The notes under the pieces were generated by a model. It did not search any database. It saw nothing but the letters and a program-made list of their open reading frames with translations, and had not been told where the DNA came from. Positions 5,078 through 19,439 of a stretch of DNA of 22,941 bases are shown piece by piece. Origin of the DNA: a virus; IMG/VR virus record IMGVR_UViG_3300021197_000428, positions 1 through 22,941 of that record. One strand, written 5' to 3'. The number at the start of each line of letters is the position of its first letter. Position 1 is the stretch's first letter. Both the position numbers and the translations under genes were made by a program.

Positions 5078-5424
5078 GCTTTCTTGCTTTTCTTCATGTT
5101 CTTTTGTATTGCTGCTTGACGTTTCTTTTCGTAGCCAGACATCTTGCCGTCTTCATCAAGGTCACCCAGCATAGCTTTACCACCTATTGCCATCCGCAAC
5201 TTCGGAGTCTGCATCATGGCAGTTTGCATCTGATTCATGTCACCTGATGTCATGGTGTTGTTCTGCATCATGTTCTGTTGTGGCTGACTTGCCGACATTG
5301 TACCGCCCCCGTAAGCTTTCTTGCGGGGTTTTTTCATGGCTGTACCACCATACATCATGGGTTTGCGACGGGACATACCGCCATACATCATTCCCTTGCG
5401 GGGGCCATTATTGTACTGTTTCAT
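5074..5424 (-). CDS. Met-rich basic protein with MMYGG repeats and an EF-hand loop, 116 aa
   Basis: Last gene of the structural cluster. Two regions are visible. Residues 1-43 hold three imperfect repeats of a basic stretch plus YGG (GMMYGGM, PMMYGGTAM, KAYGGGTM). Residues 88-99 form a full 12-position EF-hand loop, DLDEDGKMSGYE: acidic at 1, 3 and 5, Gly at 6, hydrophobic Met at 8, Glu at 12, followed by a lysine-rich helix. Between them lies a Met/Gln/Asn-rich linker. Nineteen of 116 residues are Met. The start is ATG at 5424, with AGAGGA seven bases upstream; the frame extends to 5478, but that would go deeper into the 1482-residue gene, which it overlaps by 17 bases. Possible calcium-binding virion or ejection accessory protein; function unknown. 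Confidence 0.75.
   Translation of the reverse strand: MKQYNNGPRKGMMYGGMSRRKPMMYGGTAMKKPRKKAYGGGTMSASQPQQNMMQNNTMTSGDMNQMQTAMMQTPKLRMAIGGKAMLGDLDEDGKMSGYEKKRQAAIQKNMKKSKKA
5306..5334 (+). terminator. Intrinsic terminator of the plus-strand cluster, inside an opposing gene
   Basis: On the plus strand CCCCGTAAG (5307-5315), a CTTT loop (5316-5319) and CTTGCGGGG (5320-5328) form a nine-pair stem with one G-U pair, followed at once by six T (5329-5334). This is the textbook form of a Rho-independent terminator for rightward transcripts. It lies 229 bases past the last plus-strand stop, within codons 31-40 of the minus-strand EF-hand gene, where the T-run is read as two Lys codons. On the minus strand no T-run follows the stem, so it should act in one direction only. 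Confidence 0.8.
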
Positions 5425-8400
5425 TTTGTGTCCTCTGTTGTTCTTGCTGTGCAGCAATGATTGCCTGTTGTGGTACAAAGTATTCAGCTTTGACTCCCTT
5501 TTTTGCCATCTCCCTAGCTAAAAATGATTTTAGTATTGTACCTAGTGTTTTAATCTCATCTTTTTCTACTTGTCCGGGAGTCTCAAGTATCTTCTGCATT
5601 ATCTTTGCTGCTTCTTTATCTGATGCCGCAAGACTCAAAGCGTTTATATCATTCTGTCCCATGAGACGAACCGCAAACTCAGCAGCGACGTAAGTAGGAC
5701 TAACCATACCTCGTGCAATATTAAAGGCACGACTTATAAGCTCGTTCGGAGATATACCCCGCATTTGTCCCTTTGGTTTGAAAGCACTGGCAGCAGTTCC
5801 TGATGCGTACATCATGTACTCACCAATGTCCTGCAGGAAAGCAATGTGATCTTCATCCATAAACTCTTCAAGGATTTGTGTGACATTAGGGTTGTCTAAG
5901 TCAGAAACAATAGTGGCGGCTTCCGTTAGAGTATTGACAGTTCTTTTTGTACCATCCAAAGCTTTAAAAGTTATCTGTTCGTTTGGTGCTACTCCTGCTC
6001 GTTTTAACAAGCCATTGGTCAGCATGTATATCATGCCCTGCTTAAACTCTTCTTGAGCAGCTTCGACAGTCATGTCACCATTCTTGGTTACAGCTTCAAT
6101 AAAGTTTGCTTTCAATCCCCGCACGAGTTCAACGTCATTATTCAAAATGTAATTCTCGTAAAACTCTAGGGGGTTTTTAGTGCCGGACAATTGTTCAAAC
6201 TCTTTTACTACTCGTGAGTCTAAGTCTATTGCTGTCTGGCCCATAGTTGCTGAGTTATCTATTTGGTTGTTTAAATCGTCAACAAATCGTCGGTGATCTG
6301 CTCTCGTGCTTGCACTTACAGCGAGGATGTCAACAATATCATTTTCAGTTGAAACCATATCACTTATATCAAATAACGGACGGGACACTACATCGTCAAC
6401 AAGCTCCCCGCCTTGATCTACAGGTTGTTTTACATTCACTTGTATTGCAGGAAGAACATTGTCTAGCAAGTTTACTCTTGCGCTAAAATCGTAGTCACCT
6501 GACTGTATGTCACCACCAATAAGGTTCTGTCGTGTAGCCGCAGAAAGTCCTCTCTCTTTTGCTGCACCCCAATACTCGTACAAATTAACTCTGACTAAGT
6601 TAGCTACGTTTTCAAACTTAGCACGGCCCCGTTCAGTTGTTAAATCAAACACAATATTTCCTGCATCATCCCTGTCTCCCCAGAAACGAGCTAGGTCTTC
6701 TATCATAATCTTTACTCTATCTGCGGCAAACTCTTTACCCTCTACGGCATCATTTATAGCTTTTCCTAAATCCCTGTGCCAAGTTTCGGGTTCCATACCT
6801 AGCTTGTATGGTCGCTTATAGCCGCCGGGGATTTTAGTAACAAACTCTGGTCCCGTGCTTGATTTCAGTATTTTCTCACCCCCACTAGAAGGTCGCGTCG
6901 GATCAAAGATTAAATCACGGTAAGTATCTCGTGCAGCCTGAACTTCTTTAAATACTCTGGGGTTAGCTCGTAGGGAACTTTCTATAGAGTCAGCAAAGTC
7001 ACTGAACGGCTTGGCTTCCTTCTTGTCTGTCTTTGACGATGCTACTTTGTCAAGGTGGCGACGAACTTCATCTAGCTCAAACGGCTTTGCAGAGAAGGGA
7101 GCAAACTGACTTCCCTCTTTCTTACCGAAGTGTAGGGCTAAGTCTATGTAGGATACATCTCCTACTTCACCCAAGAAGTCATCCCCTGATGCTGGGTTTG
7201 TTACCCACTGCATTAACTCACTCAAGTCTTCATCGTCTAGTTGCATGTTATTTCTGAGGGAACGTTCTGCCATGTCGTTAAAGGCATTGTACGCCATTCT
7301 GCCAGACCTGCTATTTAAAAAGTCTGCATTTGGATCAAACAAACCACGCAAGTCTTTAGCTTCTATAACGCCCTGAGTATCAGTAAATGCAGTTACTGCA
7401 CCCGATATGTCTATGCTCTCATTCCCTATTGCTTCATCAGCTTTAGTGTATGCGTTTCGAGCAGTGGCGTATATAGAAGACATGTGAACGTCGTATATGT
7501 CTTCCTGTAGTAAGCCTATTTGCCTACGAAAATCAGGTGATCCCTTCATGTCAAACACAATTTTGGAACGTTCGTTTATTCTGTTACGAACATCTGTTGT
7601 TGTCTGAAGAATAATCTCACGCTGCTGTTCAATACTATCCCTAGCACCGGGAACTAGTGCAATCTCCAGTTCTGCCAGCCTGTTAACAATGTCCTTGTCT
7701 ATGTCAACATCAGGATCAGAAATCATGTTTGTTTTGTACTCACGAAGAAGATTAAGGTACTCTATCTTTCGTTCTTGTATCTGCAAACGCTGTTTGTCTG
7801 CAGCCCCTTGAAAGTTCTTTACCCAACCAGCAAGAAACTTACTGTCTTCAGTGTCAACTCCTGATGTTTCTTTTATCATTTTCTGGAGTTGTTCTATGGC
7901 TGTTGATGCTATGTCCAAAGAGTTCTCACTCTGTAGTTGAAATTCAACAGCCTCTTGGATACCCTGTGGGCTTAACTTTTTAAGAGAAGAGACTTCTAAA
8001 GCCTGTAGCGGAGCAAGACCTGATATGTGAGCAAAAGAAAGTTTGAATACCTCTGCGGCCTTCTCTCTTTGTTCTCCCTCTGGAAACCTGTTAACAATAC
8101 GATCCCTTAGTTCGTTGTAGTTTTCAATGGATTTATACACGTTCTCCCGCTGTTCAATGGTCATGCCTTTCATCAGTTTATCAAGAAGATCAAAGGAAGC
8201 AACCTCTCCCTTTTCTAATGGCCTACCGATTGCCTGTTCTAGTTCAGCAATGCTTCTGTTTGTAAACAACCCCTTTGGAGCAAGGCTCACATCCTCAATC
8301 ATTTGAACCATGTTCATGCCGATTACACCTGCGTTACCCCCACTAATAAAGTTCACCACTTTAAAGGGAGCAGCCACTGTCATCTTAATGGCGGGTTTGC

Positions 8401-9856
8401 CTGCAAATGCAAATCCTAATGCCCCAAATATCTCTCCTGATCCCTCACTTAAACCAACCATAGGAAACAAATTGGCTCCGGCTGTCTGCCCTATGGCGAC
8501 AACTGCCTCATCAACCATCAGGCTAAACATGTAGGGATTACTTGCGCCACCAAAATTGATGCGATTCCTACGACTGTTAAGAGCTTCTATCTCTCCGTCA
8601 ATAACTTTTGCATCTTGAATGCGCTGAGTCTTGGGTACGTTTTGGTTGTTTAACGCCTTATCTCTGCGCTTGTTTGCATCCTTTAGCCTTGTGTCTATAT
8701 TCTTTAAGGCATCTCGTGCAGATTGATTTGCTTCTACGTTACCAATAGCTCCCCGATTGTTAAAGGATTGACCTATTCTAGCCGTTGCTTTTCTCCAACT
8801 TCGAGTAAATAGGTTTCGCTTTTCTTCAATCTCAATTTTACGAAGCAAACTAACTCTATCTAAGTTGCTGAATTGTGGATTCGTCTCTAAGTATTTATCA
8901 ACCTTTTTAATTTGGCGTCCACCCTTTGCAAGGTGCATCTTTCCTAGCACCCCACTCACAGGAACGTTTTGCACTACAAAGGATGCGAACTGTTCATCAA
9001 CAGGTAGCTCTCTAAACCCAAATGTTAAAAGCTGATCCCCTAACTCAGAAGGAACCAACTCGTTTTCAATTTGACCCAAGCCCTCTAGCGTTGGTGCGTA
9101 GTCTTGATCAAAAACATCCTGCCCGTACTTCTCAATAAATTTTTCTTTTATAAGTCGATTTAACTTTATACCGTACGTTGCGTCTACGCCGTATTCTCTT
9201 AGTGTTTGTCTGCCCTTTGCAAATACTGTAGCAACTTGGCCTTTTCTTTTTGCAAAGGCTTCACTGAAGGTTACGTCACCATCTTTAAAAAGGTCTAGTG
9301 GGCCTGACTCCAATACTGATGGTGCAACAAACCTAGCCAATACTTCCAAGTAGTCGTCTACGTTAGCAATAAATCTAGGAATCTCTCTAAGCTGCCGCCC
9401 TGTTTCGTTAAAGAACTCTCCTGTTTCAAAATGATCGATTAGTAAGTTACGAACTCTTTCATCAGGAATCTTACCCTCAAGAAACGAAAACAACCGTGTG
9501 CGGTTTTCTGCGTATCCTTTCATAGCTTGAGCTTCTTTTGGAGTGAGGTCCGATGGTAAATCCATCTTGAAACCTGTATCAGTCTGTACTGTTCCTGCAA
9601 TGGGCTGAGATTTTGAAGGAACAATTCCCGCCATGTCAATCCTAGAGCGGATAGAATTTTGAGCGGCAGTGTCCCCACTCAAGGCTAAGTCTATCTGTGT
9701 TTGTGGAATTTCAAACCCACCCACCATACGACTAGAGCCTGTAATAACCTGCTCGTAAGTAGGAGTTTCTACAGTGGGTGTTTCAAGCATAGCCGCCGCT
9801 ATTGGCTGCATAGCTGGTGAAAGATTTGCTTCTGGAGTTCTTTGTGGTTCAGCCAT
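5408..9856 (-). CDS. Very large internal virion / DNA-ejection-type protein, 1482 aa
   Basis: Probable virion protein of the ejection apparatus, by size, position and composition comparable to T7 gp16 (1318 residues), though I see no sequence motif shared with gp16 and no lysozyme or transglycosylase signature at the N-terminus. It is mostly predicted helical and charged, with coiled-coil-like stretches (for example around residues 375-435 and 640-780). One long apolar, glycine-rich region at about residues 440-520 could associate with or cross a membrane, as expected of a protein that builds a conduit during infection. The N-terminal 40 residues are Pro/Thr/Ala-rich. It follows the 807-residue gene after 3 bases and overlaps the EF-hand gene by 17. 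It is by far the largest gene here. Confidence 0.72.
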   Translation of the reverse strand: MAEPQRTPEANLSPAMQPIAAAMLETPTVETPTYEQVITGSSRMVGGFEIPQTQIDLALSGDTAAQNSIRSRIDMAGIVPSKSQPIAGTVQTDTGFKMDLPSDLTPKEAQAMKGYAENRTRLFSFLEGKIPDERVRNLLIDHFETGEFFNETGRQLREIPRFIANVDDYLEVLARFVAPSVLESGPLDLFKDGDVTFSEAFAKRKGQVATVFAKGRQTLREYGVDATYGIKLNRLIKEKFIEKYGQDVFDQDYAPTLEGLGQIENELVPSELGDQLLTFGFRELPVDEQFASFVVQNVPVSGVLGKMHLAKGGRQIKKVDKYLETNPQFSNLDRVSLLRKIEIEEKRNLFTRSWRKATARIGQSFNNRGAIGNVEANQSARDALKNIDTRLKDANKRRDKALNNQNVPKTQRIQDAKVIDGEIEALNSRRNRINFGGASNPYMFSLMVDEAVVAIGQTAGANLFPMVGLSEGSGEIFGALGFAFAGKPAIKMTVAAPFKVVNFISGGNAGVIGMNMVQMIEDVSLAPKGLFTNRSIAELEQAIGRPLEKGEVASFDLLDKLMKGMTIEQRENVYKSIENYNELRDRIVNRFPEGEQREKAAEVFKLSFAHISGLAPLQALEVSSLKKLSPQGIQEAVEFQLQSENSLDIASTAIEQLQKMIKETSGVDTEDSKFLAGWVKNFQGAADKQRLQIQERKIEYLNLLREYKTNMISDPDVDIDKDIVNRLAELEIALVPGARDSIEQQREIILQTTTDVRNRINERSKIVFDMKGSPDFRRQIGLLQEDIYDVHMSSIYATARNAYTKADEAIGNESIDISGAVTAFTDTQGVIEAKDLRGLFDPNADFLNSRSGRMAYNAFNDMAERSLRNNMQLDDEDLSELMQWVTNPASGDDFLGEVGDVSYIDLALHFGKKEGSQFAPFSAKPFELDEVRRHLDKVASSKTDKKEAKPFSDFADSIESSLRANPRVFKEVQAARDTYRDLIFDPTRPSSGGEKILKSSTGPEFVTKIPGGYKRPYKLGMEPETWHRDLGKAINDAVEGKEFAADRVKIMIEDLARFWGDRDDAGNIVFDLTTERGRAKFENVANLVRVNLYEYWGAAKERGLSAATRQNLIGGDIQSGDYDFSARVNLLDNVLPAIQVNVKQPVDQGGELVDDVVSRPLFDISDMVSTENDIVDILAVSASTRADHRRFVDDLNNQIDNSATMGQTAIDLDSRVVKEFEQLSGTKNPLEFYENYILNNDVELVRGLKANFIEAVTKNGDMTVEAAQEEFKQGMIYMLTNGLLKRAGVAPNEQITFKALDGTKRTVNTLTEAATIVSDLDNPNVTQILEEFMDEDHIAFLQDIGEYMMYASGTAASAFKPKGQMRGISPNELISRAFNIARGMVSPTYVAAEFAVRLMGQNDINALSLAASDKEAAKIMQKILETPGQVEKDEIKTLGTILKSFLAREMAKKGVKAEYFVPQQAIIAAQQEQQRTQNETVQ

Positions 9857-9859
9857 GTT

Positions 9860-12283
9860 TTAAAGCCCAACTTTCAGTGGTACAAATCTGCCGTTTAATA
9901 CGGTATATTTTCCGGGCAGTTTATTTCCGGTTGATTTTTCTATCAACTCAAAGCCTACTCTGTTGTTCCCGCCCGGTATGATTGTAACAAGTTTAGGGTC
10001 TATTCCCTCTGCCTGTTGTGTTTCTGGTGGTTTACCCGTATCTGCTGTAGGCGAAGCAGCATCCTCGCCAGTAACAGCAGGAGCAGCCTCGCCAGTAGCA
10101 GCAGGAGCAGGAGCTTCATTGGCAACAGCGGGAGCAGCAGCAGCCCCACTAGTAACATCAGCAGGAGCAGCAGGAGCAGCGGTAATAGATTGACTTTTAG
10201 GAACAGCATTTATAACGTTGCCATCAACATCTACGTACACTGCACCGCCCTTGCCATCAGGGTTAGGTATAGCAGCCCCATTATCATCAGTGGCTATGAA
10301 TGCTTGCCCACCGCTTTCAGAAACAAACTGAGTAGATATGTTAGCTGGATTAGGTGGGGAGTACGTTGTGGTTGCAGGTGTAATCTGACCCTCAAACTGT
10401 GAAAAGCTAGTAAACCCTGCTCTTTTAGCCAACCTATCTACTGCAATAATACCCTTAATAAGCTTCTTGGAACCCGCACTTGCTTTTCCACCAGCGTCAC
10501 CTACTAACTCAATTATAGCCCCGTACCTAGCTTGCTTTGTTTCAAAGTCACGTATTGATTCTTGAATACGAGCTTTCATAGCCGCAATCGTGTCGGTGTT
10601 CTTGCCCAGCCTTTGGAGTTGAGCTTCAATGTCTTGGTTAGACAAACGACCAGAGGGGTCAGCAGCACGAGCCATTTGGAAAGCAAGAGAAATACGAATT
10701 GCTTCAAACCGTGCATACCTTGCTCCGGCTTCCTCAATAGACTCTCCCTCTCTTGCGTTGCTTCTTCCTCTTTGTCTTGCCGCTTCTACGCTGCCGTTTA
10801 AGTCCTGTATAAAGCCTTCAGTTACAAACTTAACTTTGTCGCCATTCTCATCAACTTCATTTGCATTAACAAGTCTGGCTCCTTCAGCATCAGAAACAAT
10901 ATTTGACTGAGGGATAAGGGTGCTAACATTAGTTCTATTTAACTGCGCGGTATCTCCCCCCACAAGGGCAGAGAATATAGCTCCTACACTTGCAAGCTTA
11001 CCCTTGATATTGTCCACTGCAGCAGGTCCAGCAAAATTTGTTTCAACCATGTTCAACAAGCCGTAGAGTCCAGTCTCTCCACCCTCAACGCCAAGAACGT
11101 CTATGATTTCATTGTTAAATGTAACGAGCGTGTTGAAGTCACTTTCTTTAGCCAATTGTCCAAACAGTTCTCTGGAAGCAAACAGCTTATTTGTTATATT
11201 CTTATCCACCCGTTTTATACCATCAGCAGGGTTCCAGTTTGGCAACTCTTGGAATGCCCCCAGTACGTAGGCTACACCTACTGCACTTGACTTTCCATCA
11301 TCGTTTGCTATCTTTTCAGTTACTGTTTTAAGAAGTTGTCTTGCGGTGCTTGTATCCATAGTAGAAATAGACATAGGAGTGTTAGGAAGTTTCATACCAG
11401 CATCTGAATACTCTTGTGCTATATCCCTAGCAGCATTAAACCAAGTCTGTCTGGTGTTTATGTCTACACCTCCGGTTAAATTAGTGTAGCCAGCCCACGC
11501 TGCAGGTAGGTTGTCACTACTCGCTCCTAAAACCTTACCCATCGTGGTATAGCCCTGTCCAAATTCATCCATGTTACCCATAGTTATCATTTGACCCGGA
11601 TCAACATCGTCAACGAGAGTTGGTTGTCCCATTTCACCAGTGGCTATAATATTTAAAACACTATAATCCGGGTTCTTAGTTCTAACTTTCATTATTTCAT
11701 TAAAGTTTTTCATACCAGAAAATATAGATGTGTCTAGTGCTACGTTGGCTCCTTGCGCTCTTTTTACATTAAAATCGTTAAAGATAAGACCACCATGTGC
11801 CTTATACAAACCTTCAATTTCAAAAAGAAGACTGTCGGGAGCAGACGCAAGTTTCATCATAGATTTTTTGCTACCTAACAGACGGCTATTTAATTCTGTA
11901 ATAGCAGCGTAACTATCTCCTGAGGCTCCAAACTTACGAACATCAACCCCCATCCCAAACTTAAAATCACCTGATCCAACCACAGATTCATAGTCACCTA
12001 TACTGTTGATGGTACCCTGCAATTTGGCAAAGTCTATATCAATCCCGTCAGTCTTTCTACCAAACATGTCGATAGGCTTACGCTCTTTAAGTTGTTGACG
12101 AGCAGACTTGATAAGTGCAAAAGCACCTGATGTATCCTTCTTGGGATCAAGGCTGGCTGTAAAAGCAGCCGTTTCAAAGCCATCTATCTTAGCTTGTTCA
12201 GCTAACCGACTAGCTTCTTCCTTTTCTATATTCTTAGTAAAGCCCTTAACAAGACCTGTTGCAAATGCGGCACCAATACCCAT
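9860..12283 (-). CDS. Large internal virion-type protein with Ala/Pro-rich linker, 807 aa
   Basis: Probable internal virion or ejection protein, in the place and of the size of T7 gp15 (747 residues); this is analogy, not a motif match. The N-terminus (MGIGAAFATGLVKGFTKNIE) is amphipathic and leads into helical, charged sequence. Residues of about 698-760 are almost wholly Ala, Pro, Thr, Glu and Gly (positions 10004-10192), a flexible linker, followed by a separate C-terminal segment of about 47 residues rich in beta-forming residues (for example NRVGFELIEKSTG and KYTVLNGRFVPL). It lies 1 base after the 187-residue gene and 3 bases before the 1482-residue gene, so the three are one transcription unit. 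No enzyme motif was seen. Confidence 0.7.
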   Translation of the reverse strand: MGIGAAFATGLVKGFTKNIEKEEASRLAEQAKIDGFETAAFTASLDPKKDTSGAFALIKSARQQLKERKPIDMFGRKTDGIDIDFAKLQGTINSIGDYESVVGSGDFKFGMGVDVRKFGASGDSYAAITELNSRLLGSKKSMMKLASAPDSLLFEIEGLYKAHGGLIFNDFNVKRAQGANVALDTSIFSGMKNFNEIMKVRTKNPDYSVLNIIATGEMGQPTLVDDVDPGQMITMGNMDEFGQGYTTMGKVLGASSDNLPAAWAGYTNLTGGVDINTRQTWFNAARDIAQEYSDAGMKLPNTPMSISTMDTSTARQLLKTVTEKIANDDGKSSAVGVAYVLGAFQELPNWNPADGIKRVDKNITNKLFASRELFGQLAKESDFNTLVTFNNEIIDVLGVEGGETGLYGLLNMVETNFAGPAAVDNIKGKLASVGAIFSALVGGDTAQLNRTNVSTLIPQSNIVSDAEGARLVNANEVDENGDKVKFVTEGFIQDLNGSVEAARQRGRSNAREGESIEEAGARYARFEAIRISLAFQMARAADPSGRLSNQDIEAQLQRLGKNTDTIAAMKARIQESIRDFETKQARYGAIIELVGDAGGKASAGSKKLIKGIIAVDRLAKRAGFTSFSQFEGQITPATTTYSPPNPANISTQFVSESGGQAFIATDDNGAAIPNPDGKGGAVYVDVDGNVINAVPKSQSITAAPAAPADVTSGAAAAPAVANEAPAPAATGEAAPAVTGEDAASPTADTGKPPETQQAEGIDPKLVTIIPGGNNRVGFELIEKSTGNKLPGKYTVLNGRFVPLKVGL
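10004..10192 (-). repeat. Degenerate Ala/Pro codon-repeat tract coding a linker
   Basis: On the plus strand this stretch is dominated by GCA/GGA-type triplets such as GCAGCAGGAGCAG, repeated with variations (for example at 10075-10110 and 10120-10185). On the coding strand it gives an Ala/Pro/Glu-rich linker in the 807-residue protein. The triplet phase is kept throughout, so length changes would leave the frame intact. Confidence 0.6.
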
Positions 12284-15065: not shown

Positions 15066-16103
15066 TTATAACTCCGCAGATGCTGTAAAATCAGTAACTT
15101 CAGCATATTCAGAACTGCCCAAGCCATTTACAAAAGGACTATACCCCCAAGTGCTAATATGCTGGTTGCCTCTAGATGTTCCCGCATCGGCAGCTTCAAA
15201 AACCGTTGTAACAGAAGGCTGTGCCCTCATAGTCACTGGAAAAGAAATATTTGCCCTTGCATATCCACTTCCAAGATTATTCATAAAGCACCAAGCAAGC
15301 CCACCAGAACTAATATCATTGCCTTGCGTATAATACCTCTGACACTTAGCTAACGTAGTTCCTATGTCCTCATGCTCAAACGGCGTGGCCTGTTCGCCGA
15401 TTTCAAGCTGTACGCCCGTCACTGCCCAATCATTTGCAGTGCTGTCAAAAAAGTTTACGTTATGCCCATACAAAAACCCTGCATTTGAATAGTTACTCCA
15501 AGAGGTGCTATCTGAACTTGTAAAATCAGAACCCGCTGCTAAAACCCAGTACACATAAATTCCGGGACCATTATCATCAGCAATGCCGCCACCAGCCGTA
15601 TCGCCAGCAAAAGTGATTGTTTTAAACTCCCATGTGTCAGCAGAACTAATCGTATAAGTAGCCGTAATCTGTCTACCTGTGTTATCTGGCTTATATAAGT
15701 TTAGTCCCCACGTTCCTGTTTTATTAGATTTAACATAAAAACTTAACGTCAATGATTTTGCGGCAGAACTTCCATTGCTAATTTGTTGCAAATTTTGCGC
15801 TTCTATAGGTTGATAAAAAGTGGAGTATTCATCTGCTGCCAAAGCACTTTCAGCGGTTGTACAGTCTATTCTCCAAGACTTAGAAAACCCTGTTGGAGCC
15901 ACAGAAGATTGGACGTATGTGAAAGCAGCATTATCCATATTTGCTACAGTAAGTGAGAAACGGTCTACTGTATTATATCCAGTGGAAGCCGTTGCACTCG
16001 TACCCCGCTGCGCTACGTTCATCGCACCATTGACGACAAGATTTCTATTTTCTTGCGCCTGACCTGAACCAATCAGTGCGGCTAATTCTGCTGCTTTACT
16101 CAT
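15066..16103 (-). CDS. Tail fibre / carbohydrate-binding-like tail protein, 345 aa
   Basis: Probable tail-fibre protein that contacts the host surface. After a short helical leader (SKAAELAALIGSG) comes NRNLVVNGAMNVAQRGT and YNTVDRFSL, an arrangement typical of phage tail proteins carrying a beta-sandwich of carbohydrate-binding type; the region of about residues 30-235 is beta-rich with many aromatic residues. GVQLEIGEQATPFEHE at about 236-251, then KCQRYYTQG, is the usual end of that sandwich, and the last 90 residues form a further beta domain. It lacks the C1q-like domain of its neighbours. The start follows the 25-bp repeat, with GGAG 8 bases upstream. The role is inferred from family resemblance and place. 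Confidence 0.78.
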   Translation of the reverse strand: MSKAAELAALIGSGQAQENRNLVVNGAMNVAQRGTSATASTGYNTVDRFSLTVANMDNAAFTYVQSSVAPTGFSKSWRIDCTTAESALAADEYSTFYQPIEAQNLQQISNGSSAAKSLTLSFYVKSNKTGTWGLNLYKPDNTGRQITATYTISSADTWEFKTITFAGDTAGGGIADDNGPGIYVYWVLAAGSDFTSSDSTSWSNYSNAGFLYGHNVNFFDSTANDWAVTGVQLEIGEQATPFEHEDIGTTLAKCQRYYTQGNDISSGGLAWCFMNNLGSGYARANISFPVTMRAQPSVTTVFEAADAGTSRGNQHISTWGYSPFVNGLGSSEYAEVTDFTASAEL

Positions 16104-16125
16104 CTATCTATCTCCGATTAGCCAA
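16101..16125 (-). repeat. 25-bp junction repeat, copy 1
   Basis: Identical over 25 bases to 17945-17969. Read on the coding strand it holds the last Gly codon and TAA stop of a C1q fibre gene, the ribosome site GGAG, and the ATG of the next gene 8 bases later. Here it joins copy A to the 345-residue fibre. Confidence 0.9.
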
Positions 16126-17107
16126 TTAGTGCGCCTGAAAATACACTTTCAGTCGCGATATCAGTTTGTGACGTGCCTACTGACTGAACAACTTGCACTT
16201 TTGCGGTATCACTAGCATCCATATCAGCTATATGACTTATAGACATCACCCAATAATTTGGGTCTTGACCAAAGTCAGGGTCAAAAATAAATTGGTAGTT
16301 TCTATTGCTTGTTACTATAGTACACAAATAATAATTTGCTGCTGAATCCACCAATCCAAGTCGTATAGAAGTAGACAAAAAATACTTACCAGCCACAGGG
16401 GCTGTGAATGTATTAGATGCAAAGTTTGCGCCTACATCAAACACTTCTGTACCAAAAACTATATCTACATTTGAATTTATAGCGATATTATCTTGTGTGC
16501 TTGCGGGTCTGGCTTGAAACGATGGTTGCAGGGACTTTGTGACATGGCCTGAACTGTCGATACGCATAGTCTCGTCTGTTGCAGACCCATCATTCTTCTT
16601 AAAAATGATTTCGCCATCCGCTGAACCATCTCTAACGTTAATAATAAGCGCACCGCTAGTCGCTTGAAGGGTGGCAATATCGTTTGTACCTGACGAGTCG
16701 GTCATAGTGATTGTTGGGTCATCACTGGTCATAACCACATTATTTGTAACAGAGAGCGAACCAGTAACAGCAAGCGTACTTGCCATAGACACTGCACCAG
16801 CAAACGAGCCACCATCCTTTGCGCTAACTGTGTCGGCTATTGCAAAGGTATCGTAGGTAATCATCTCTACTACGTCATCAGTCGAAGCTCCTGTAACAAG
16901 AACAACGCTGGTTCCGGTTGTAGAAGCATAGTCAGTGACAGGCTTGAGAAGCACCCCGTTTTGATAAACGTCTAGGTACGATGGGTCATCGTAAACCAGA
17001 GATATACCCGCACTGTCGTTACCGCTAAAGCTTGTTTGCCCTGCAGTGGCAGCGTAGATGTATCTCTGACGTACTCCGTTTCCGGGGGATTTACCTATGT
17101 ATGGCAT
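16118..17107 (-). CDS. Tail fibre with C1q-like C-terminal domain, 329 aa (copy A)
   Basis: Probable receptor-contacting fibre. Residues 1-90 resemble an attachment domain (MPYIGKSPG, then SYLDVYQNGVLL and DY), residues 95-190 are repeat-rich shaft (VSMASTLAVTGSLSV, RIDSSGHVT), and residues 194-329 form a jelly-roll of C1q/TNF type: EVFDVGANFASNTFTAPVAG-K-Y, then TSNRNY and ADMDASDTAK, ending GALIG. The same C-terminal domain ends the 165- and 370-residue genes. The gene ends in the 25-bp repeat that also carries the start of the next gene. It starts 9 bases after the 98-residue gene. C1q folds are usually trimeric, fitting a fibre tip. The fold call is from pattern only. Confidence 0.78.
   Translation of the reverse strand: MPYIGKSPGNGVRQRYIYAATAGQTSFSGNDSAGISLVYDDPSYLDVYQNGVLLKPVTDYASTTGTSVVLVTGASTDDVVEMITYDTFAIADTVSAKDGGSFAGAVSMASTLAVTGSLSVTNNVVMTSDDPTITMTDSSGTNDIATLQATSGALIINVRDGSADGEIIFKKNDGSATDETMRIDSSGHVTKSLQPSFQARPASTQDNIAINSNVDIVFGTEVFDVGANFASNTFTAPVAGKYFLSTSIRLGLVDSAANYYLCTIVTSNRNYQFIFDPDFGQDPNYWVMSISHIADMDASDTAKVQVVQSVGTSQTDIATESVFSGALIG
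16539..16561 (-). repeat. 23-bp repeat before the C1q domain, in copy A
   Basis: Identical over 23 bases to 18395-18417. It codes IDSSGHVT in both genes, just before the C1q-like domain, and so marks the upstream border of the shared cassette. Confidence 0.88.
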
Positions 17108-17116
17108 ATTAACTTC

Positions 17117-17413
17117 CTATCCGATTGCAGATGCGTCATCCCGTGCTTTACGATTCTTGTAGTCACTACGAGCAAGAATAAGCGCAACAAAGTCTGCCTG
17201 ATTACTTGGGATGCTGTCAGTAAAGCTATCATCGTTCATCAGTTTAGTTGTCCACTCCTGCTGCATACGCTTCCAGCAGTTGTTGATTTTGCCGTCCACC
17301 GCTGCCTGTATCCAAGCATCTAAGCCAGAATTGTCGCTGGCGGTGTACAAATCGTTGCTCAAGATTTGCTGTTGTAGGTCAGTCAGTACGACTGCTTTAG
17401 TGTGATTTGCCAT
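17117..17413 (-). CDS. Hypothetical protein inside the fibre array, 98 aa
   Basis: Unrecognised helical protein, with LTDLQQQILSNDL, then LDAWIQAAVDGKINNCWKRM and ILARSDYKNRKARD. The VDGKINNCWKRM stretch appears to be typical of a small protein seen near tail fibres in marine phages, with no known function; I cannot name a family. It has the strongest ribosome site here (AAAGGAG, 7 bases before the ATG) and is separated from the 165-residue fibre gene by 36 bases, which hold a small GGGT-GAAAT-ACCC hairpin. It might be a fibre-assembly chaperone, as often found next to fibre genes, but that is a guess from place. Confidence 0.7.
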   Translation of the reverse strand: MANHTKAVVLTDLQQQILSNDLYTASDNSGLDAWIQAAVDGKINNCWKRMQQEWTTKLMNDDSFTDSIPSNQADFVALILARSDYKNRKARDDASAIG

Positions 17414-17449
17414 TTTGTGTCTCCTTTATGACAGGGGTATTTCACCCGA

Positions 17450-17947
17450 TTAACAAATTAATGCACCATTAAATTGGCACCAAGATATTGTATGAACTAC
17501 ATCTGTTTGTTGCGTACCATCTGCTTGATTTATTTTTATCTGTGCCGTGTCATTAGCATCCATGTCAGCAAGCGCACTATTAACAAACGACCAAAAACCA
17601 GCGTCTTGACCAAAGTCAGGGTCATAAATTATGCTATACGACCTGTTAGAAGTCACGATATGTAGTACATAGTAACTAGTCGCAGAGTCCAAAGCAGCAA
17701 CACGGATGGCTGTGTTTATCTGGTACTTTCCAGTAACAGGTGCAGTAAAAGTGTTGCTGGCAAAGTTTGCGCCTACGTCAAACACCTCTGTGTCAAACGT
17801 TATAAGTACGTCTGAACCAACAGCAATATTACTTTGCGTTGCACTTTTAGTAACAGAAAAACATGGTTGCGCTGCTTTTGTCACTTCGCCATCAGCCGAA
17901 ATGGTTACGTTGCTAATACCGGAGCCTTGTATTTTGGTTAGTGCCAT
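17450..17947 (-). CDS. Short C1q-like fibre protein, 165 aa (copy B)
   Basis: A minimal member of the fibre family: a 25-residue leader (MALTKIQGSGISN) joined to one C1q-like domain (residues 26-165). The domain is closest to copy A, sharing EVFDVGANFASNTFTAP, GKY, IVTSNRSY, DPDFGQD and LADMDANDTA, and DNA identity is retained in blocks (22 bp at 17603-17624 with 16262-16283). It lacks the PYLG-type N-terminal attachment domain and shaft of copies A and C, so it may bind to another fibre rather than to the tail itself, or be a decayed or captured domain. The ATG comes from the end of the 25-bp repeat. The C-terminus is GALIC in place of GALIG. Confidence 0.76.
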   Translation of the reverse strand: MALTKIQGSGISNVTISADGEVTKAAQPCFSVTKSATQSNIAVGSDVLITFDTEVFDVGANFASNTFTAPVTGKYQINTAIRVAALDSATSYYVLHIVTSNRSYSIIYDPDFGQDAGFWSFVNSALADMDANDTAQIKINQADGTQQTDVVHTISWCQFNGALIC

Positions 17948-17969
17948 CTATCTATCTCCGATTAGCCAA
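17945..17969 (-). repeat. 25-bp junction repeat, copy 2
   Basis: Identical to 16101-16125. Here it joins copy C to copy B. A diverged version (TAATCGGGTGAAAT) follows the end of copy B near 17440-17455. Confidence 0.9.
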
Positions 17970-19074
17970 GTAAAATTCCTTGTATGTAAGTCAGTGCTGA
18001 GTTGCTTACTATTGTTGCGTGGTTGTTAGTTCCAGAGTATTGTTGATACTGTAAGTAAGCCTCATCGTTAGCATCCATATCTACAATCGCGATATTATTT
18101 GGAGCAGAATATGCTTCATCTGAGGTAATGTCTACAATTTGGTCATAGGTTCTATTACTGGTGTATATTCTGTAATAGTAATAAGTTGCTCCCGCATCAG
18201 AACTATCTAATCTAAAACCCCATTTAATTAAATATCTACCCGTGACAGGAGCAGTAAATTTGTAAGTGCTTAAATTAAAATTCGACCCTACATCATATAA
18301 TTCAGCATTAGCAGCAAATGTGCTTAAGCTAGTTGAATTACTTACTGCGATATTTCCATTAGGGTAAGCGTGGAACGCTGGCTGATTAGGTGTAGTGACA
18401 TGGCCTGAACTGTCGATGGTCATTGGAATGGTAAACGAATGTGTTGCATCAGCCGAGCCAGCAGAAGCAGCAGAAGTAAACCATTTATGCGCTCCATTCG
18501 TTACATCTTGATAATAAGCCAAACCGTAACCAGTAGAAATACTTGTCCCCGTGTCAGAAGAATTGTAGTACGTATTGCTGGCTAAGTAGGTGTCTTTTGT
18601 TCTCTGGAATACTGTACCACTACCTACATTCAAACTTGACGTAACATTTGCATGCATAGTTTTTGGTGTAAAATCAATGCCCACTCTTTCTGACGAATCA
18701 ATAGTAATAGCTGTAGCATCTGCATTGTCGTCTATACCCGGAGATGTAAAGGCACCCGTAAAAGTACCCGTAGTCGCTGTCAGTGCAGACGTAGCTGGGT
18801 GTGCGACTGTAGCGTGAGTACGGGCTAGGTAATTTACAAAGATGTTGTTGCCAGAGTTACTAGACGGGGCAGCAGTAAAGGTCAGTGTCGTGCCGCTTGA
18901 TACGGCATACGCTGCTACGTCCTGTACAACACCATCCACACTCACCAAGATGTCTTGGTCAGAGGTTACAGGGAAGGACAGGGTAAACGCGGTAGTGCTA
19001 CCGTCACCGCTAAACTGGTCAACGGCAGGTTGACTTACAAACCTGTCAGCAGCCTCATTACCTAGATACGGCAT
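17962..19074 (-). CDS. Tail fibre with C1q-like C-terminal domain, 370 aa (copy C)
   Basis: Probable receptor-contacting fibre. Residues 1-85 form an attachment-type domain (MPYLGNEAADRF, FSGDGSTTAFTLSFPV, ILVSVDGVVQ), residues 90-225 a shaft that includes TIDSSGHVT, and residues 230-370 a C1q-like domain, more diverged than copies A and B (ELYDVGSNFN, KFTAPVTGRY, YTSNRTY, IVDMDANDEA, QGILLG). The start overlaps the TAA of the 121-residue gene by one base (TAATG). Its end lies in the 25-bp repeat that supplies the stop, ribosome site and ATG for copy B. The presence of a full N-terminal domain suggests that copies A and C attach to the virion independently. Confidence 0.78.
   Translation of the reverse strand: MPYLGNEAADRFVSQPAVDQFSGDGSTTAFTLSFPVTSDQDILVSVDGVVQDVAAYAVSSGTTLTFTAAPSSNSGNNIFVNYLARTHATVAHPATSALTATTGTFTGAFTSPGIDDNADATAITIDSSERVGIDFTPKTMHANVTSSLNVGSGTVFQRTKDTYLASNTYYNSSDTGTSISTGYGLAYYQDVTNGAHKWFTSAASAGSADATHSFTIPMTIDSSGHVTTPNQPAFHAYPNGNIAVSNSTSLSTFAANAELYDVGSNFNLSTYKFTAPVTGRYLIKWGFRLDSSDAGATYYYYRIYTSNRTYDQIVDITSDEAYSAPNNIAIVDMDANDEAYLQYQQYSGTNNHATIVSNSALTYIQGILLG
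18395..18417 (-). repeat. 23-bp repeat before the C1q domain, in copy C
   Basis: Second copy of the 23-bp element at 16539-16561, at the same place relative to the C1q-like domain. Flanking sequence differs between the two genes, so the identity is local. Confidence 0.88.
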
Positions 19075-19439
19075 TAGGTTATCTCCATTATACTCAATGT
19101 ACCTGAAAGTTTATCTGCGACACTACAGTCAATCGTAATCTGGTCTGTAGTCTCTAGGACAACCTTGTTTCCTGCCATCAATTCCAAACTACCGCCAACA
19201 GGAATAGGCGCATCTTTTACAATTACGCTTGTGCCGTTAGCTGTGTTGTTTGTTACTGCACGGTTGGCTGTATCACTAACCAAGTTAACTGTTGCAGTTA
19301 CTTGAGAAGTGTGTATGTTACTGAGAATCAAGCCTAGAACAACTGTAGTTGTACTACTGGCGGCAGTGTACATCACATAGGGTGTCCCGCTTGCGTTTGG
19401 TTCGGCTGCAAAGTTTACAACCTTAAATGTATTAGCCAT
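19074..19439 (-). CDS. Small beta-rich tail protein, 121 aa
   Basis: Small virion-type protein, almost all predicted beta-strand: TPYVMYTAASSTTTVVLGLI, then VTATVNLVSD, GTSVIVKDAPIPVGGSLEL and KVVLETTDQITIDC, ending in a strand that closes a sandwich (GTLSIMEI). This single-sandwich layout, with an IPVGGSLEL turn, is common for small proteins encoded next to tail fibres in marine phages; it may cap or connect fibres. It is the first gene after the consensus promoter at 19461-19489, with a purine leader (AGAGAGAG) before its ATG. The stop overlaps the start of the 370-residue fibre. No enzyme motif was seen. Confidence 0.74.
   Translation of the reverse strand: MANTFKVVNFAAEPNASGTPYVMYTAASSTTTVVLGLILSNIHTSQVTATVNLVSDTANRAVTNNTANGTSVIVKDAPIPVGGSLELMAGNKVVLETTDQITIDCSVADKLSGTLSIMEIT

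Follow-up and report, generated by a model that had tools for sequence, protein, structure and literature searches.

Genes for C1q-domain proteins adjoin the tail fibre gene in pelagiphages, and Mizuno and colleagues proposed that they encode receptor-binding proteins (PMC3909814). In the part of that account drawn on here, the N-termini of these proteins are conserved and recruit well while the tips are variable and under-recruiting. Of the recognition domains encoded in variable regions of marine phage genomes, C1q tips rank with the most frequent. The stretch analyzed in this study, hereafter the window, is the whole 22,941-base virus record IMGVR_UViG_3300021197_000428. It carries three fibre genes with related C1q tips (E370, D165, and B329) and a gene for a 98-residue protein, C98, that is directly preceded by two small RNA hairpins. 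Like the pelagiphage proteins, those of the window combine a C1q domain with a conserved N-terminus and a variable tip, whereas the same part of the account mentions no three-gene array, 98-residue partner, or RNA element. C1q tips in marine phages and their receptor-binding reading are already published; added here are the family of C98 proteins, the link between this family and C1q tips, and the twin hairpins. The existence of these three is well supported, while their function is what we infer.

The window covers part of the genome of a marine phage. Its tail is of the HMO-2011 type, since eight virion proteins encoded on the minus strand match the tail region of SAR116 phage HMO-2011 in largely collinear gene order, with identities from 61% to 27%, and this tail synteny places the contig near that phage. 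The amidase-like H504 reached 61%, A345 48%, and the N-termini of E and B 55-56%, while G595, F121, I440, and L187 are further homologues. Between gp44 and gp28, HMO-2011 shows the order of the window, with an amidase-like gene, a tail fibre, a small structural gene, an MPYIG-type fibre, a C1q gene (gp31, annotated as a C1q protein, PF00386), and a last fibre. Unlike the window, HMO-2011 has one detected C1q gene among about 12 short fibre genes, followed by a PF16778 chaperone and not by C98. Pelagibacter phage HTVC115P resembles the window in its three adjacent C1q-domain genes (gp59, gp58, and gp57), but all three are short, a PF16778 chaperone gene is nearby, and C98 is missing. Among the collected C1q loci, 27 tip sets held at least two C1q genes and four held three, counted before full removal of overlaps. 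Because of these four sets and the HTVC115P array, the three-tip array is uncommon but not unique.

The initial annotation had described the range 16118-19074 as an array of three fibre genes. The three open reading frames (ORFs) of 329, 165, and 370 residues were found at these positions, all on the minus strand, while a fourth gene within the range, the 98-residue ORF at 17117-17413, had gone unmentioned. The cassette consists of the following genes.

19074..19439, minus strand: F121, small conserved gene that opens the cassette, matching HMO-2011 gp42, 'putative structural protein'
17962..19074, minus strand: E370, fibre gene with an MPYLG N-terminus that is T7-fibre-like (just under the Pfam cut-off), a shaft, and a C1q tip at residues ~226-369
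17450..17947, minus strand: D165, short fibre gene with a MALTK N-terminus (~28 residues) and a C1q tip at residues ~22-164
17117..17413, minus strand: C98, gene for a conserved 98-residue protein, predicted to be all-helical, candidate assembly factor for C1q tips
16118..17107, minus strand: B329, fibre gene with a MPYIGKSPGNGVR N-terminus, a shaft, and a C1q tip at residues ~189-328
15066..16103, minus strand: A345, final fibre of the cassette, a phrog_4492 tail fibre with a non-C1q tip

Together, these genes would supply three fibres whose attachment ends differ and whose C1q tips are related, and one virion may display several of these tips, as the initial annotation suggested.

The C98 family and its coupling to C1q tips

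C98 lies between D165 and B329. Related viral contigs numbered at least 405, and the 80 best of them showed 79-98% identity to C98. Mean column identity was 79% for C98 compared to 41% for the tips, and residues K42, K48, R49, and R88 are invariant. The gene preceding C98 was C1q-tipped in all 52 cases from loci fetched by C98 and in 21 of the 22 from loci fetched by fibre proteins, amounting to 73 of 74 cases. In the only exception (L005), a C1q gene is located 888 bases upstream. Both C98 and a C1q gene occurred in 27 of the fibre-selected loci, C1q only in 16, C98 only in none, and neither in 68, a descriptive count, as fragments of small size and mutually related contigs are part of it. 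The C1q-tipped genes coupled to C98 start with about 40 different pentapeptides. Single-linkage clustering of the N-termini preceding C98 placed most of them in one group via shared shaft repeats, and this result was not used.

The coupling extends to two further clades, in which the preceding gene was C1q-tipped in 23 of 23 (MDISKR type) and 38 of 43 cases (S-SRM01 gp010 type). Among the five gp010-type exceptions, two preceding genes have the Phage_tail_APC motif YRQALRD..WP at their end and two an XkdW-like end, as judged by eye. An hhalign comparison relates the C98 profile to that of gp010 (93%, E 2.5e-7). A tblastn search with C98 against annotated isolates returned no match at 1e-5, and the distant S-SRM01 gp010 family was the only one reached, via position and profile. 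A C98-type gene follows the C1q gene in only two isolates, S-SRM01 and Limnohabitans phage DC33, while other genes take this place elsewhere. The DC33 record (L191, PQ492659.1) is classed under Inoviridae and holds a 39-kb genome with tail-fibre-like genes; it is probably misclassified. No relative of C98 was confirmed among cellular genomes.

C98 is absent from NCBIfam, reaches the cut-off of no Pfam family, and lacks a solid PHROG match; a 14-residue Pfam match to DTP-pb9 fell below the cut-off and was disregarded. The C98 model is all-helical with a predicted local distance difference test (pLDDT) score of 91.6. Its fold search gave no match in the PDB and two uncharacterised proteins with weak E-values in BFVD.

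The best explanation of the locus, in which we place moderate confidence, is a three-fibre C1q cassette with tip swapping, in which C98 acts as a tip assembly factor under translational control. C98 is most likely a small cytoplasmic factor aiding the folding or trimerisation of C1q tips, and a single C98 would serve all three. It is read as an assembly factor because it stands directly behind a C1q-tipped gene, is small, is constant unlike an adhesin, and takes a position that is held by assembly-type genes in relatives. Behind the C1q gene, gp30 of HMO-2011 is a Phage_tail_APC gene (PF16778) and gp40 of HTVC203P an XkdW gene (PF09636), both small like C98; however, C98 matches neither profile. 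Fibre chaperone genes are commonly found directly downstream of the fibre gene, for which gp27 of V22 is a precedent (PMC7289586). In cyanophage Pam3, the chaperone gp25 embraces the fibre gp24, a trimer with a TNF-like domain, and an alpha-helical trimerisation domain of gp25 mediates assembly (PMC9608196). The all-helical C98 model resembles gp25 in this respect, but gp25 also has a beta-sandwich domain, while C98 matches no solved structure.

Several points weigh against this explanation. Distances of C98 and of the tips are uncorrelated overall (Mantel r -0.06, core set), giving no tip-by-tip co-evolution, and many C1q genes occur without C98. C98 has no sequence or fold match to known chaperones, and the fold prediction for the tips covers one copy, D165, as a monomer. 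The contigs are also mutually related, so that P values overstate their independence. Because the distances are uncorrelated, C98 would be generic to the tip family. The idea that C98 and its tip travel as one cassette was rejected as stated on the same grounds.

Instead of a departing chaperone, C98 could be a component of the virion, such as a cap or collar on the C1q-tipped fibres. The same coupling to C1q-tipped genes would then be seen, and the high conservation suits a fixed structural interface. We nevertheless regard this as unlikely, as the equivalent position in some relatives is occupied by the Phage_tail_APC or XkdW genes, and Phage_tail_APC proteins are assembly factors.

Twin hairpins ahead of the C98 gene

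The assembly factor reading includes control of translation, for which two hairpins ahead of C98 are the candidates.

17434..17447, minus strand: HP1, covarying mini-hairpin GGG / loop TGAAATAC / CCC between the D165 stop and the C98 start
17418..17433, minus strand: HP2, covarying mini-hairpin TGTC / loop ATAAAGGA (C98 Shine-Dalgarno) / GACA

The element spans 17447-17418 on the minus strand, with HP1 followed by HP2 without a gap and with 8-nt loops, and fills part of the gap between the C1q stop and C98. Leaders were picked by loop motif, complementarity not being a criterion, and the HP2 set of 45 required both loop motifs. The HP1 stem was paired in 97.4% of cells across 51 distinct leaders, with 57 double changes compared to 14.6 in shuffles, while slid positions paired in at most 62%. 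In the 45 leaders of HP2, the stem was paired in 97.8%, with 27 double changes compared to 7.4. Across 1.0 Mb of loci, the HP1 model matched 42 times, never more than once in a locus, and at the C98 leader wherever coordinates were compared. Many of these 42 had served to build the model, and the informative part is that no other sites appeared. Energy folding alone did not reliably show the hairpins (z-scores of -1.0, -1.7, and 0.0), and the case for them therefore rests on covariation. These weak folding energies suggest that a ligand would be needed for holding the hairpin structure. Rfam gave no match to the C98-leader element. A separate Rfam match, to Mu-gpT-DE RNA (RF03012, 72 bits), was found in a related contig at L011:694-746.

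Covarying mini-hairpins precede the C98-type gene in two clades. The MDISKR clade (leaders L035, L039, L043, and L058) has the HP1-type hairpin twice in tandem, and the stems of the second copy change between ATG/CAT, ATT/AAT, and ATC/GAT. The gp010 (S-SRM01-type) clade has neither hairpin and instead shows a conserved AATAAATACT box before the gene (L190:3465-3495, L292-L350). We take this box to resemble T4-type late promoters, and the S-SRM01-type partner genes may have their own promoter.

Lying over the C98 ribosome-binding site, the twin hairpins probably set the level of C98. A more specific proposal, which we put forward only tentatively, is that C98 belongs to an undescribed family of C1q-dedicated fibre-assembly proteins in at least three aquatic-phage clades. 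In two of these, an undescribed RNA element made of adjacent octaloop hairpins stands before the gene. In the window, where the second loop contains the ribosome-binding site, the element would plausibly be an operator bound by C98, so that the supply of the factor follows that of the tips.

C98 might also act mainly on RNA, regulating the fibre operon by binding to the twin hairpins, in which case its link to C1q would reflect operon architecture. The element is found once in a genome and nowhere but before C98, both stems covary, K42, K48, R49, and R88 are invariant, and C98 does not covary with the tip, all of which suit such a role. However, the S-SRM01-type clade retains the C1q coupling without the hairpins, and further C98-type genes also occur without the element, which leaves regulation as the primary role rather improbable.

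A hairpin directly behind the D tip also recalls the arrangement of diversity-generating retroelements, a dedicated mutator that could produce tip diversity. This is largely refuted and highly implausible here, as no reverse transcriptase (RVT_1) was found in the window and 11 related records, 12 records that may be fragments, and as the hairpin stems measure just 3-5 bp and are linked to C98 rather than to C1q genes generally.

C1q tips of the three fibres

E370, D165, and B329 share a C-terminal domain of about 140 residues. In BLASTP, B and D were 55.7% identical over 149 residues (E 6e-56), D and E 40.9% over 137 residues (E 1e-24), and B and E 32% over about 250 residues (E 5e-26) or about 42% over the tip alone, similarities that are well beyond chance. 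The paralogy claimed in the initial annotation is thus borne out, and the tip motifs that it quoted are present in the genes. In an alignment of 82 tips, there is no variation at F67, A69, P70, G73, and Y75 of D165 and almost none at S100, N101, and D128-A131.

At the curated Pfam C1q (PF00386) cut-off of 23.7 bits, both E370 (24.6) and B329 (23.7) pass, while D165 alone gave no PF00386 match, though it is 56% identical to B329. A profile of the 82 tips matches cerebellin-1 and C1QL chains in the PDB at about 1e-6 for single-domain chains. The AlphaFold (AF2) monomer model of D165 is all-beta with a pLDDT of 92.9, and its best Foldseek matches in the PDB were the C1q domains of Caprin-2, Cbln4, and C1QL2 (E ~1e-8), with target TM-scores of about 0.7-0.8 among the top matches. 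Phage chains ranked after them, among these 9k09 from the tail of cyanophage A4 and 8ke9, the short tail fibre of cyanophage A-1(L). The D165 tip is confidently predicted to be a C1q jelly-roll, as the earlier comparison with C1q/TNF jelly-rolls had proposed, and homology to D165, together with Pfam C1q, supports the same fold for the B329 and E370 tips. Because C1q domains form trimers, the end of each fibre is probably a jelly-roll trimer, which would bind a cell-surface ligand. From the C1q family we infer this trimerisation and receptor binding, as we do the chaperone role and translational control of C98 from its setting. At the other end, E370 scored 24.3 bits against the T7-like fibre N-terminal domain PF03906 (cut-off 25.2), and B329 gave no match.

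D165 had been taken for a bare domain and possibly a spare copy. The word bare is only partly apt, as the gene starts with MALTKIQGSGISNVTISADGEVTKAAQP and about 28 residues of its own precede the tip, with a MALTK start found in dozens of short fibre genes. Among the collected loci, 61 ORFs have starts related to MALT(K/Q), joined to C1q tips or to several very different C-termini, and these starts therefore mark an N-terminal class of short fibre proteins. Genes with the D-type start stand directly behind an E-type gene in L003, L009, and L011. Over its first 28 codons, D165 shares 95% DNA identity with L011, and divergence sets in with the tips (59% amino-acid identity overall). This N-terminal class, the recurrence beside the same neighbours, and the N-terminal conservation speak against the intact D165 being a degenerate or spare copy. 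Strings of 120-165-residue fibre genes, which differ in their MST/MAL starts and share the ending ...GDLA, were also observed between E-type and D-type genes in L014, L050, L061, and L063, as in HMO-2011.

Tip exchange and the remainder of the window

E370 matches L008 at 97.5% identity over its first 400 bases and L010 at 94% over its first 320. The stretch that runs from base 691, midway through the QPAF motif region, to the end of the gene is 86% identical in DNA to genes in L006, L005, and L003, whose bodies are of the MALTK type, the MPYIGRPL start, and the E-type, respectively. The tip region is 83% identical to L007. Tips are exchanged as DNA cassettes between bodies, with the conserved linker T..QPxF ahead of the tip as the swap junction, and modular exchange is supported by nearly the same tip standing behind different N-termini in other contigs. 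The E370 tip is under strong purifying selection, with a ratio of nonsynonymous to synonymous substitution (dN/dS) of 0.09-0.12.

Two pairs of identical sequences bracket the E and B tips.

18395..18417 (E370) and 16539..16561 (B329), minus strand: 23-bp linker sequence before the tip, identical in both genes
17945..17967 and 16101..16123, minus strand: 23-bp exact repeat GGCTAATCGGAGATAGATAGATG at the E370 stop/D165 start and the B329 stop/A345 start

The part of the GGCTAATCGGAGATAGATAGATG repeat from the stop to the next ATG also occurs behind E-type tips in L003, L004, and L009 and behind a B-type tip in L011. The 23-bp repeats are candidate recombination sites; recombination at the T..QPxF linker, and possibly also at the repeat after the tip stop codon, would trade tips between attachment ends and between phages.

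The demonstrated movement of tips between bodies and the identical brackets would also suit the alternative raised in the initial annotation, in which the extra C1q genes are redundant spare tips for recombination and are not expressed as fibres. Yet all three ORFs are intact with purine-rich, ribosome-binding-site-like leaders, the dN/dS of the E tip is about 0.1, and the D-type gene recurs with its own N-terminus in other contigs, so that we consider unexpressed spares quite improbable.

Outside the cassette, the minus-strand part of the window is the virion module, while the plus-strand part codes for a Cas4-type exonuclease, an endonuclease, and a ribonucleotide reductase. Genes for 1482 and 807 residues on the minus strand (5408-9856 and 9860-12283) had no PHROG match, and the former also no isolate match; they are candidates for internal virion proteins. 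No near relative of the window was found at the DNA level among 50,697 phage records.

The C98 family may bear on how C1q fibres are assembled and re-tipped. The swap junction explains how tips change while attachment ends are kept. The twin hairpins would constitute a compact RNA element of a new kind, its covariation unusually clear, and would flag C98-type loci where contigs are fragmentary. If C98 is a dedicated assembly factor, co-expressing this one small gene could yield the C1q fibres of uncultured phages and make the identification of their receptors directly testable.

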